40,046 bases of DNA, from positions 1 through 40,046 of the forward strand of contig JACAEC010000060.1 of the NCBI GenBank assembly GCA_013389055.1, written 5' to 3'. The position numbers were made by a program, and so were the translations under genes. Origin of the DNA: Hydrogenophilaceae bacterium. Lineage in GTDB: Bacteria; Pseudomonadota; Gammaproteobacteria; Burkholderiales; Thiobacillaceae. Positions 7,949 to 9,849 of the stretch are shown piece by piece. Within the stretch, counting starts at the first letter, position 1, and every line of letters starts with the position of its first letter. The notes under the pieces were generated by a model. It did not search any database. It was given only the letters and a program-made list of their open reading frames with translations, and was not told the DNA's origin.

Positions 7949-8254
7949 ATGCCGAAAACCGAAGACAAGCCGAGTAAAAAGACCACCAGCAAAACCGAAA
8001 CCGCGGCCAAACCCAAGAAGGCCGCAAGTTCGGTCAAGGCAGCCACCGCCACCAAGACCACGGCAGCCAAGGCTACCACTGCCAGCAAACCCAAGAAGGC
8101 CAAGGCCCTCGACGCCGATCTGCGCCACAAGCTGATCACCGAAACCGCGCATTTCCTGTCGGAAAAGCGCTGCTGCGGCGCGAGTGAGATGGATGACTGG
8201 CTGTTCGCGGAGCAGTTGGTGGATGGGGTGAGTGGGGCGATAAGCAAGTCTTAA
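7949..8254 (+). CDS. Histone-tail-like Lys/Ala/Thr-rich protein with C-terminal DUF2934-like domain
   Basis: A 101-residue protein in two parts. Residues 1 to about 54 are a low-complexity basic tail rich in Lys, Ala and Thr with PKK motifs (KPKKAAS, KPKKAKA), like the tails of bacterial histone H1-like proteins. Residues about 58-95 resemble DUF2934: RHKLITETAHFLSEKR, then a Cys-Cys pair, then EMDDWLFAEQLV, matching the family's acidic D-W-x-x-A-E signature. Such tails usually bind nucleic acid; whether this one does is inference. It has its own strong ribosome binding site and is not in an operon with tldD (79-base gap). A 9-bp stem hairpin follows at 8324-8351. Confidence 0.82.
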   Translation: MPKTEDKPSKKTTSKTETAAKPKKAASSVKAATATKTTAAKATTASKPKKAKALDADLRHKLITETAHFLSEKRCCGASEMDDWLFAEQLVDGVSGAISKS

Positions 8255-8323
8255 CAAACCGATCCAAACATTGTTTCTACCTGGCACGTCTTAAACCCCG
8301 TAGATCACTATTCCTACGATAGC

Positions 8324-8351
8324 CCGTTGGCCGGGCGCCCACGGCCAACGG
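8324..8351. other. Perfect 9-bp inverted repeat between the DUF2934 gene and the aroG leader
   Basis: CCGTTGGCC at 8324-8332 pairs with GGCCAACGG at 8343-8351 around a 10-base loop. It could end transcription of the DUF2934 gene, but no T-run follows, so it may be a processing or rho-related hairpin or a protein site. Confidence 0.4.
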
Positions 8352-8499
8352 CATCCCGCATCGGAAGCTCTCTGTTCAGGGCAGGCACAACAACCGAAAC
8401 GGTTTTAATCACGCCCAACAGCACGAGCCAAAATCATTTCCCCCTCAAATCAACCACTTGCCTTGCCCCACCCCCGTCCTCTCTGCTACCATGCAGGCC

Positions 8500-8571
8500 A
8501 TGAACCTGAATTGCGCTGATTTTTTCTTTTTTCACTTTTATCCCACGCCCAAGGCGGCCGGGAGGAATTAG
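8500..8571 (+). CDS. Phenylalanine-rich leader peptide of aroG (attenuation)
   Basis: A 23-codon open frame (ATG 8500 to TAG 8569-8571; an in-frame ATG at 8491 would add three residues). It reads MNLNCAD, then FFFFHFY from 8521 to 8541, then PTPKAAGRN. Five Phe codons and a Tyr within seven codons is the signature of a ribosome-stalling leader such as E. coli pheL. It is followed at 24 bases by a terminator hairpin (8595-8622) and then by aroG, whose product starts phenylalanine synthesis. No strong Shine–Dalgarno sequence is visible (AGG in CAGGCC lies only two bases before ATG 8500), so the exact start is uncertain. Too short for ordinary gene finders. Confidence 0.82.
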   Translation: MNLNCADFFFFHFYPTPKAAGRN

Positions 8572-8622
8572 CGCGAGCAGCAAGCGAATCCCCGAAAACC
8601 GCCAGACCCCTGGCGGTTTTTT
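8542..8622 (+). promoter_or_regulatory. Transcription attenuator with mutually exclusive hairpins ahead of aroG
   Basis: Three competing pairings can be drawn. The 1:2 protector pairs CGCC 8546-8549 with GGCG 8553-8556 and CCC 8542-8544 with GGG 8560-8562. The 2:3 antiterminator pairs GGCGG 8553-8557 with CCGCC 8599-8603 and CGGG 8559-8562 with CCCG 8591-8594. The 3:4 terminator lies at 8595-8622. A ribosome stalled on the Phe codons (8521-8538) would cover strand 1 and free strand 2, giving antitermination; one reaching the TAG at 8569 would cover strand 2 and allow termination. This is the standard amino-acid attenuator logic; the pairings were drawn by eye. Confidence 0.75.
8595..8622 (+). 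terminator. Intrinsic terminator of the aroG attenuator
   Basis: CCGCCAG (8599-8605), loop ACCC, CTGGCGG (8610-8616): a perfect 7-bp GC-rich stem, extended by AAAA/TTTT and ending in a run of six T (8617-8622). It lies between the leader peptide stop and aroG, in the sense orientation. Confidence 0.88.
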
Positions 8623-8657
8623 GTTTCAGGGGCTGGCCCCAGCGAAGGACTAGGAAC

Positions 8658-9734
8658 ATGACCGGATACCGAACCGACGACACCCGCATCGAGCAGGGCG
8701 ACGAATTGCTCGCGCCCATGCAGATCATGCGCGAGCTCAGGGCCAGCCAGACGGCGCTGAAGACCACCTACACCGCCCGCAGCGCCATCCATGACGTGCT
8801 GCGCGGCGCCGACGACCGGCTGGTGATCGTGGTCGGCCCCTGCTCCATCCATGACCCGGCGGCGGCGCTGGACTATGCCAAGCGCCTGAAGAAGCTGGCC
8901 GACGAGCTGACCCACGACCTGATCATCGTCATGCGGGTCTATTTCGAGAAACCGCGCACCACGGTGGGCTGGAAGGGCCTGATCAACGACCCGCACCTGA
9001 ACGAGAGCTTCGATATCAACGAAGGCCTGCGCCTGGCGCGCAAGATCCTGCTGGAGATCAACGAACTGGGCCTGCCCAGCGCCACCGAATTCCTCGACCT
9101 GATCTCGCCCCAATACCTGGCCGACCTGGTGGCCTGGGGCGCGATCGGCGCCCGCACCACCGAGTCGCAGAGCCACCGGCAGCTGGCCTCCGGCCTGTCC
9201 TGCCCGATCGGCTTCAAGAACGGCACCGATGGCAACATCAGGATCGCGGTCGATGCGATCAAGGCGGCCGAGGCGCGGCATCACTTCATCTCGATCACCA
9301 AGTCTGGCCATGTCGCCGTGTTCAAGACCGCCGGCAACGAGGACACCCACGTCATCCTGCGCGGCGGCAAGCAGCCAAACTACGATGCGACCAGCGTCGA
9401 TGCCGTCTGCCGCGACCTGGCCGCGGCCGGGCTGCGCCCGCAGGTGATGATCGACCTGTCGCATGCCAATTCCAGCAAGCAGTTCGAGCGCCAGATCGAG
9501 GTCGGCCACGACGTGGCCCGCCAGGTCGCCGGCGGCGACCCCCGCATCATCGGGGTGATGATCGAGTCCCACCTGAACCCCGGCCGCCAGGACCTCTGCC
9601 CGGGCAAGCCCCTGGAATACGGCACCTCGATCACCGACGGCTGCATCGGCTGGGCCGACACCGAGCCCCTGCTGCGGGAGCTGGCCGAGGCGGTACGGGA
9701 GCGTCGGCTGAAGCAGGACGGCAACGGCGAATAA
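8658..9734 (+). CDS. aroG: 3-deoxy-7-phosphoheptulonate (DAHP) synthase, class I, probably Phe-sensitive
   Basis: A 358-residue AroG/AroF/AroH-type enzyme that condenses phosphoenolpyruvate with erythrose 4-phosphate, the first step of the shikimate pathway. Motifs include VVGPCSIHDP near residue 60, MRVYFEKPRTTVGWKGLINDP in modified context, LPSATEFLD, GARTTESQSHR, GFKNGTDG, and the late DLSHANSSKQ and ESHL metal-site strands. Length is normal. The start ATG 8658 has AGGA six bases upstream. The Phe-rich leader and attenuator just upstream indicate that expression responds to Phe-tRNA charging, which makes the Phe-sensitive isozyme the likely assignment; the feedback ligand cannot be read from the protein with certainty. 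Confidence 0.96.
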   Translation: MTGYRTDDTRIEQGDELLAPMQIMRELRASQTALKTTYTARSAIHDVLRGADDRLVIVVGPCSIHDPAAALDYAKRLKKLADELTHDLIIVMRVYFEKPRTTVGWKGLINDPHLNESFDINEGLRLARKILLEINELGLPSATEFLDLISPQYLADLVAWGAIGARTTESQSHRQLASGLSCPIGFKNGTDGNIRIAVDAIKAAEARHHFISITKSGHVAVFKTAGNEDTHVILRGGKQPNYDATSVDAVCRDLAAAGLRPQVMIDLSHANSSKQFERQIEVGHDVARQVAGGDPRIIGVMIESHLNPGRQDLCPGKPLEYGTSITDGCIGWADTEPLLRELAEAVRERRLKQDGNGE

Positions 9735-9749: not shown

Positions 9750-9849
9750 GTGGCGGGTCTCCCCGCATGGCTAAGTTGCCAACCTGGTCAGGTCCGGAAG
9801 GAAGCAGCCACAGCGACCGATGCCAGTGCCGGGGGTAAGGCTCGCCACC
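9750..9849 (+). ncRNA. ffs: 4.5S signal recognition particle RNA
   Basis: The conserved SRP helix 8 core is present: CAGGTCCGGAAGGAAGCAGCC (9789-9809), containing the GGAA tetraloop and the A-rich internal loop bound by Ffh. The ends pair (GTGGCG 9750-9755 with CGCCAC 9843-9848) to form the rod expected for the short proteobacterial 4.5S RNA. With Ffh and FtsY it directs membrane proteins to the translocon. Location just upstream of dnaX is common among bacteria. Exact ends are estimated from the pairing. Confidence 0.95.

Follow-up and report, generated by a model that had tools for sequence, protein, structure and literature searches.

The class I DAHP synthase gene aroG of the analysed window (the whole stretch of 40,046 nt) is very probably controlled by a ribosome-mediated transcription attenuator. 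We base this reading on the parts found in the sequence, their conservation across genomes, a constraint acting at the nucleotide level, the spacing of the parts and predicted folding. As expected of an attenuator, a short ORF rich in codons for an amino acid made by the pathway precedes the biosynthetic gene, an intrinsic terminator lies between leader and gene, and a mutually exclusive antiterminator is predicted from the sequence (core invariance, codon choice, and spacing) and from folding (table 1). The first-pass annotation had proposed a protector, an antiterminator, and a terminator following a Phe-rich leader directly before aroG; this geometry holds and is conserved across genomes, and the 23-codon frame, the position of its FFFFHFY run and all the coordinates proved correct when the sequence was read again.

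Table 1. Features of the aroG leader region, in window positions
Feature	Position	Strand	Details	Basis
Possible -35 box, TTGCCC	8463-8468	+	18 nt before the -10 box	By eye from the sequence
Probable -10 box, TACCAT	8487-8492	+	TG at 8484-8485	Ends 7 nt before the leader ATG
Leader peptide ORF, MNLNCADFFFFHFYPTPKAAGRN	8500-8571	+	Start ATG 8500, stop TAG 8569-8571, 23 sense codons	Sequence reading; kept in relatives
Control codons, FFFFHFY	8521-8541	+		Sequence reading
Protector hairpin	8542-8562	+	8542-8544 with 8560-8562, 8546-8549 with 8553-8556	Minimum-energy folds, pair conservation
Antiterminator 5' part	8553-8563	+	GGCGG 8553-8557, GGGA 8560-8563; GGCGGCCGGG read at 8553-8562	Core conservation, codon test
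Intrinsic terminator hairpin	8595-8620	+	Core CCGCCAG 8599-8605 / CTGGCGG 8610-8616, loop ACCC; T-run (six T) 8617-8622	Folding, covariation
aroG, class I DAHP synthase, 358 aa (proposed regulated gene)	8658-9734	+		NCBIfam NF006723, PF00793

The aromatic-rich leader ORF is not a chance occurrence. In a census of the short ORFs of the whole 40-kb window (8-40 aa, counted by stop, both strands), it was the sole one among 474 distinct ORFs with six F/Y/W per eight residues, and one of only two with at least five. An extra in-frame ATG at 8491, three codons 5' of the leader ATG (8491-8499), overlaps the -10-like box. The 7-bp GC-rich stem and six T previously claimed for the terminator were read where they had been placed, together with the loop; A-U pairs lengthen the stem beyond its core, and the segment 8582-8624 folds at -18.8 kcal/mol (z = -4.94, 0/200 shuffles as good). 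The fold of 8480-8660, proposed earlier as a check, gave z = -3.21, again with none of 200 shuffles as good, and the regions 8500-8590 (z = -1.88, 8/200) and 8552-8605, the antiterminator segment (z = -1.51, 10/200), fold only mildly better than shuffles. The GGCGG core can pair with CCGCC (8599-8603) in the 5' arm of the terminator, and the adjoining GGGA may pair with 8589-8592. A simple scan of 8200-8700 listed no terminator and no sigma-70 promoter, which counts against the element; in our reading, the terminator was missed because the A-U pairs that extend its stem use up part of the T-run, and the promoter because 8 matches out of 12 and an 18-nt spacer fall under the cut-off.

AroG was present in 54 of 61 genomes, the window's own included. 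We classified 138 aroG upstreams (58 loci, one with two copies, and 79 of 80 named contigs; L101 was dropped, its upstream being too short): 67 had an aromatic leader and a terminator, 12 a terminator only, 6 an aromatic ORF only, and 53 neither. The terminator-only class comprises seven upstreams read by eye and five assigned by rule alone (L039, L048, L086, L105, and L138); the six aromatic ORFs without terminator (L066, L069, L085, L093, L112, and L119) are taken for chance. The rule identifies, among other named carriers, Thiobacillus, Burkholderia, Paraburkholderia, Caballeronia, Cupriavidus, Noviherbaspirillum, Rugamonas, Janthinobacterium, Massilia, Oxalobacter, Bradyrhizobium, and Mesorhizobium, to which Tepidiphilus was added by eye, and the pair of leader and terminator is absent from the loci sampled from Azoarcus, Thauera, Chitinimonas, Methylotenera, and enterobacteria. 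Within the window's family, the element was found in 31 of 34 aroG loci, 27 by rule and 4 by eye (L007, L012, L015, and L029); the exceptions are L028, which keeps one Phe, L034, with neither leader nor terminator, and L019, where the leader is lost. Relatives devoid of the Phe run or of the alternative pairings, which the first-pass annotation had named as telling against its proposal, are not what this survey shows, both being conserved across genomes. About 120 nt before aroG in L019 (genome G018), the terminator and a promoter-like box remain while the Phe leader is gone, and this locus is a candidate case of sensor loss in nature, after which termination would be constitutive.

The strongest evidence for the element is a constraint at the codon level. 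Alignment A3 holds 65 of the 67 leaders (L006, in which the rule chose another hairpin, and L089 were left out), and the codon test was made on the 60 that carry GGCGG in one frame, the five out of frame being excluded. The codon immediately ahead of the core specifies any of nine residues (L, Q, K, M, T, P, R, S, and E), and its third base is G in all 60 cases; five of these codons are ATG, in which G is obligatory. The next codon is GCG in 59 of the 60 (GTG in the other) versus 965 of 2463 Ala codons (39%) in AroG genes, an enrichment with a Fisher p of about 1e-22 when the kinship of the leaders is ignored, and the codon that follows starts with G in 59. G-ending, GCG, and G-starting codons together keep GGCGG and fit the prediction of an RNA-pairing requirement, not of a peptide constraint. 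In alignment A2, made of 29 near leaders (26 of the window's family, L035, L060, and L062, with L017 out of frame), 27 leaders have GGG as the aligned Gly triplet, a codon that accounts for 92 of 808 Gly codons in AroG, and 27 have AGG or AGA as the aligned Arg triplet, versus 22 of 731 Arg codons.

Covariation was assessed for each of the three pairings. The terminator covaries, with 97.2% of cells paired, 14 cells changed on both sides and 0/500 shuffles as high. No covariation was detected in the antiterminator, where 76.3% of cells are paired versus 76.1% in shuffles (217/500 as high); its core pairs are kept in 60-62 of 63 distinct rows, the flanks doing no better than shuffles, and a core that hardly varies cannot covary. 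Support for this putative pairing comes from invariance, codon choice, and spacing, not from covariation. In the protector, 188 of 196 cells (95.9%, 29 sequences) are paired and 8 unpaired, with no compensatory change; the only variation among standard pairs is from C-G to U-G, and the score equals that of column shuffles (500/500).

In a refinement that the first-pass annotation does not mention, the leader ORF is probably leaderless or nearly so, as judged from the sequence around its start. No Shine-Dalgarno precedes its ATG in the window. Across 111 leaders, a -10-like hexamer ends 6, 7, and 8 nt before the leader ATG in 12, 25, and 7 cases, where shuffles lead one to expect about 1.1-1.2 per gap; such a hexamer is found in 40 of the 111 leaders overall and in 25 of the 29 in the window's group (27 of its family, L060, and L062). 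Bradyrhizobium-type leaders have TATATG at the same place, outside the strict rule, and Burkholderia- and Massilia-type leaders have TATA-like boxes farther upstream. Shine-Dalgarno-like words occur before 6 of 111 leaders versus 50 of 66 aroG starts, the latter being inferred via alignment and scored over a stretch 4 nt longer. With a -10-like box ending 7 nt before the ATG, transcription is predicted to start at or next to the leader ATG. A leaderless transcript start has been reported for trpL of Sinorhizobium meliloti (accessible text of PMC10117765).

The spacing of the parts suits a stalled ribosome. Counted from the first base of the last aromatic codon, GGCGG follows at 14 nt in 39 of 60 leaders and at 11, 17, and 20 nt in 8, 6, and 7 others (range 11-20). 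With an Escherichia coli ribosome footprint, which reaches 12 nt past the first base in the A site, a ribosome paused at that codon would just leave the core free. We simulated folding in 61 leaders (4 of the 65 were left out), with transcripts cut after the 5' arm of the terminator and pairing called at P > 0.5. The core was predicted to pair with CCGCC in 54 of 61 when the ribosome stalled at the last aromatic codon (7 failing), in 58 when it stalled at the middle one, in 20 without ribosome, and in none with the ribosome at the stop, the latter by construction. The earlier suggestion that the geometry fits stalling on Phe codons gains support from the 14-nt spacing and from the pairing predicted in stalled leaders. 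The CCGCC arm was paired upstream at 0.994 versus 0.677 with the intervening segment shuffled, on average, all 61 leaders lying above their shuffle means. At equilibrium the terminator wins in the fold model even when 8552 onward is free, so the switch would have to be kinetic, as in known attenuators.

From these sequences we infer stalling, termination, the signal, and initiation of transcription at or beside the leader ATG, in the following scheme. When charged tRNA-Phe is plentiful (with tRNA-Tyr for the one Tyr codon), the ribosome would pass FFFFHFY, reach the stop at 8569 and cover GGCGG, and RNA polymerase would stop at the 8595-8622 terminator. Under Phe shortage, the ribosome would stall in 8521-8541 with its leading edge near 8551, leaving GGCGG free to pair with the emerging CCGCC; the terminator could then not form and aroG would be transcribed. 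Without translation, the protector hairpin would hold GGCGG and termination would follow.

The signal may be broader than Phe. Among control residues, F occurs in 111/111 leaders, Y in 103, and W in 58, so that the wider set looks multi-aromatic, and the codon starting 14 nt ahead of GGCGG specifies Y in 33 of 60 leaders, F in 13, and H in 7. Given also that a single DAHP synthase, feeding all branches, was found in the window's own draft genome, it is a serious possibility, falling a little short of probable, that stalling at any Phe or Tyr codon (or Trp codon in other lineages) de-represses aroG, the whole aromatic pool being sensed as in multivalent branched-chain leaders. This would be a variant of the attenuator proposed above and does not exclude it. 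Against it, Y is lacking in 6 and W in all of the 29 leaders of the window's group, in which F is always there, and the Phe-Tyr-Phe leader of Corynebacterium glutamicum answers to Phe, not Tyr, according to the accessible part of PMC11802643. We hold Phe as the main signal in the window's element, with a likely contribution of Tyr (present in 23/29 leaders of the group) and with Trp playing a part only in other lineages. Control by Phe, as first claimed, stands in this refined form: Phe codons are universal, Tyr codons usual, and Trp codons common elsewhere. Phe codons are biased, TTT to TTC being 189 : 77 in leaders versus 58 : 398 in AroG. Codon bias of this kind is discussed for regulatory codons (PMC1183508, in the part accessible), and the bias could also stem from a need for unstructured U-rich RNA. 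His, though no product of the aromatic pathway, appears somewhere in 41/111 leaders, in Burkholderia- and Thiobacillus-type genomes, and may reflect chance CAT/TAT exchange or a function.

The hairpin is strong and placed between two genes, and L019 has it without a leader, as might be expected if it merely ended transcription of the upstream gene, or terminated constitutively, with the Phe-rich ORF present by accident. We consider this very improbable, given that conservation extends jointly to leader, GGCGG, codon choice, and spacing, that the leader and the upstream gene are separated by a promoter-like -10, and that the leader RNA keeps company with aroG even when searched for by itself. 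Searches with R1, a covariance model of the leader RNA, were made without the AroG protein. Of 200 genomes from the order (Burkholderiales, placed in Gammaproteobacteria by the GTDB scheme), 46 gave full-length matches with E < 1e-7; matches with E <= 1e-4 came from 5 of 274 genomes sampled across the class, two of which belong to other orders. In the phylum, at the same cut-off of 1e-4, 51 of 398 genomes had matches, 22 of the 51 outside the class, and 50 were full-length (G049 matched in the terminator only). All 53 full-length loci fetched (L139-L191), which were taken best first and not as a random draw and include 8 already used in building R1, directly precede aroG. An R1 tally of 83/200 genomes at E 0.01 was set aside on account of the weak or partial matches: among 12 such places fetched (L192-L203), 11 had neither AroG nor an ORF with at least 5 aromatics in 8, and the remaining one, L200, is the degenerate aroG of G018.

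The distribution of the attenuator follows the phylogeny of the gene. On an AroG tree of 184 rows, of which 4 were unlabelled and 5 relabelled "leader" by eye, the leader label requires 10 changes versus 52.4 in shuffles, a difference to which near-copies contribute. Named alphaproteobacterial rows form one group of 20, all with leaders, which adjoins other leader-bearing rows, the next branch being weakly supported. This pattern suggests that the element was inherited with the gene, and perhaps transferred with it.

At the element, no Rfam family reached threshold, either in the window or across 20 aroG loci (the window's included); SRP RNA alone gave hits at threshold in these sequences. RF01859 (Phe_leader) gave a weak full-length alignment at 8499-8625, with 21.5 bits for a gathering score of 55 and an E-value of 0.21, and stays below threshold. 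This lack of a family at threshold, together with conservation that is shaped by coding (in-frame aromatic codons, ATG, and stop), makes it scarcely credible that this structured 5' region with its terminator is riboswitch-like, with a metabolite or protein as ligand of the RNA and the ORF playing no part in sensing.

The identity of the downstream gene is well supported. AroG scores 575.8 bits against the NCBIfam AroG equivalog NF006723 (cut-off 568), and its best matches among solved structures are DAHP synthases, including chains named Phe-sensitive or phenylalanine-regulated; the closest named loci belong to a Thiobacillaceae MAG (82%), Tepidiphilus (80%), a Pseudomonadota MAG (80%), and Thiobacillus (79%). 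In its own genome, the class I DAHP family (PF00793) occurs at two places, AroG and a second match that we rejected as another DAHP synthase because it is KDO8P synthase (KdsA). Neither a class II DAHP synthase nor a TyrR-type HTH was found in this genome and 8 others searched; in 14 named genomes used as positive controls, the same searches detected the class II enzyme in 2 and a TyrR-type HTH in 1 (E. coli). For the window's own genome these absences are provisional, because the assembly is a 94.9% complete draft. No short ORF with at least 4 F/Y/W in 8 was present at its loci for pheA, two chorismate-binding genes, and KdsA.

Around the element, a Lys/Ala-rich ORF of 101 aa (7949-8254, + strand), without Pfam or NCBIfam match, lies 5' of the leader. 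Between it and the aroG promoter region, a GC-rich inverted repeat without T-run, CGTTGGCC...GGCCAACG, was seen by eye at 8326-8350 and may be a terminator or a repeat element. A bacterial small SRP RNA (9752-9849, 74.6 bits) starts 18 nt past the aroG stop and is followed by dnaX and two ORFs that resemble YbaB and RecR by eye; of 19 further loci searched, several of them short, 7 likewise have SRP RNA close to aroG.

In mechanism and parts, the element belongs with the classical attenuators of pheA, pheST, and trp; what sets it apart is a start that is probably leaderless and a mix of Phe, Tyr, and Trp codons that changes between lineages. The E. coli pheA leader (pheL, RF01859) and pheST attenuator share with it the logic of a Phe-codon leader followed by a terminator; unlike them, the element found here would control aroG instead of pheA, scores far below the RF01859 threshold and shows a mix of aromatic residues in relatives. 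The aroR-aroF attenuator of C. glutamicum was reportedly characterized by Neshat and colleagues in 2014. In the published descriptions of that system, as far as accessible, an aromatic (Phe-Tyr-Phe) leader attenuates a DAHP synthase gene in response to Phe (PMC11802643 and PMC4046766); it differs by being actinobacterial and by acting on aroF. The uORFC-13-1 motif before aroF of Acholeplasma, compared here by its description in the accessible text of PMC8632094, likewise joins a predicted uORF with Phe codon(s) and a terminator upstream of a DAHP synthase gene, for which Phe attenuation is predicted, but is described only from Acholeplasma and environmental sequences. The S. meliloti trpL/rnTrpL attenuator also has its leader ORF on a leaderless transcript, shown there and predicted here, but is a Trp attenuator before trpE (same portion of PMC10117765).

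Other literature is less close. For Shewanella aroF, Tyr attenuation was suggested long ago, according to a table entry in PMC2659441 (in part), and a comparative study of proteobacterial regulons names TyrR, TrpR, and pheA and trp attenuation, with no aroG leader in the parts available (PMC5343134). The accessible portion of PMC6429828 mentions two uORFs with F and Y at shikimate genes, and its genomes (HIMB5, C. novyi, T. lienii, Arcobacter, and Baumannia) include no betaproteobacterium; one of its motifs could be related to the aroG element. A literature search, whose reach did not extend to key older papers and supplements, recognised no aroG leader for alpha- or betaproteobacteria. The first-pass view of Phe attenuation of DAHP synthase as a distinct regulatory wiring stands insofar as no description was found for these lineages within that reach, and gives way insofar as C. 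glutamicum aroR-aroF (PMC11802643, in part) provides a precedent.

These data may define an attenuator family, as yet unnamed, that is passed on together with the genes of class I DAHP synthases, a proposal on which we find the balance even. It would span Burkholderiales-type bacteria, at least one other family of the class, and Bradyrhizobium- and Mesorhizobium-type alphaproteobacteria, and might pass from class to class as a unit of gene plus leader; it would be leaderless in several lineages and combine a nearly invariant GGCGG/CCGCC switch with Phe, Tyr, and Trp codons tuned by lineage, one RNA setting the whole shikimate flux where no TyrR was found. The alignment is ready for an RNA family entry, and the codon differences between lineages amount to a natural experiment on the signal read by an attenuator when its pathway is shared. 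If the proposal is true, the first committed step of aromatic synthesis would be placed under a leader peptide and not under TyrR/TrpR-type repressors in lineages that include Burkholderia, Cupriavidus, Massilia, Thiobacillus, and Bradyrhizobium, and the engineering of aromatic production in such bacteria would need to account for the element.
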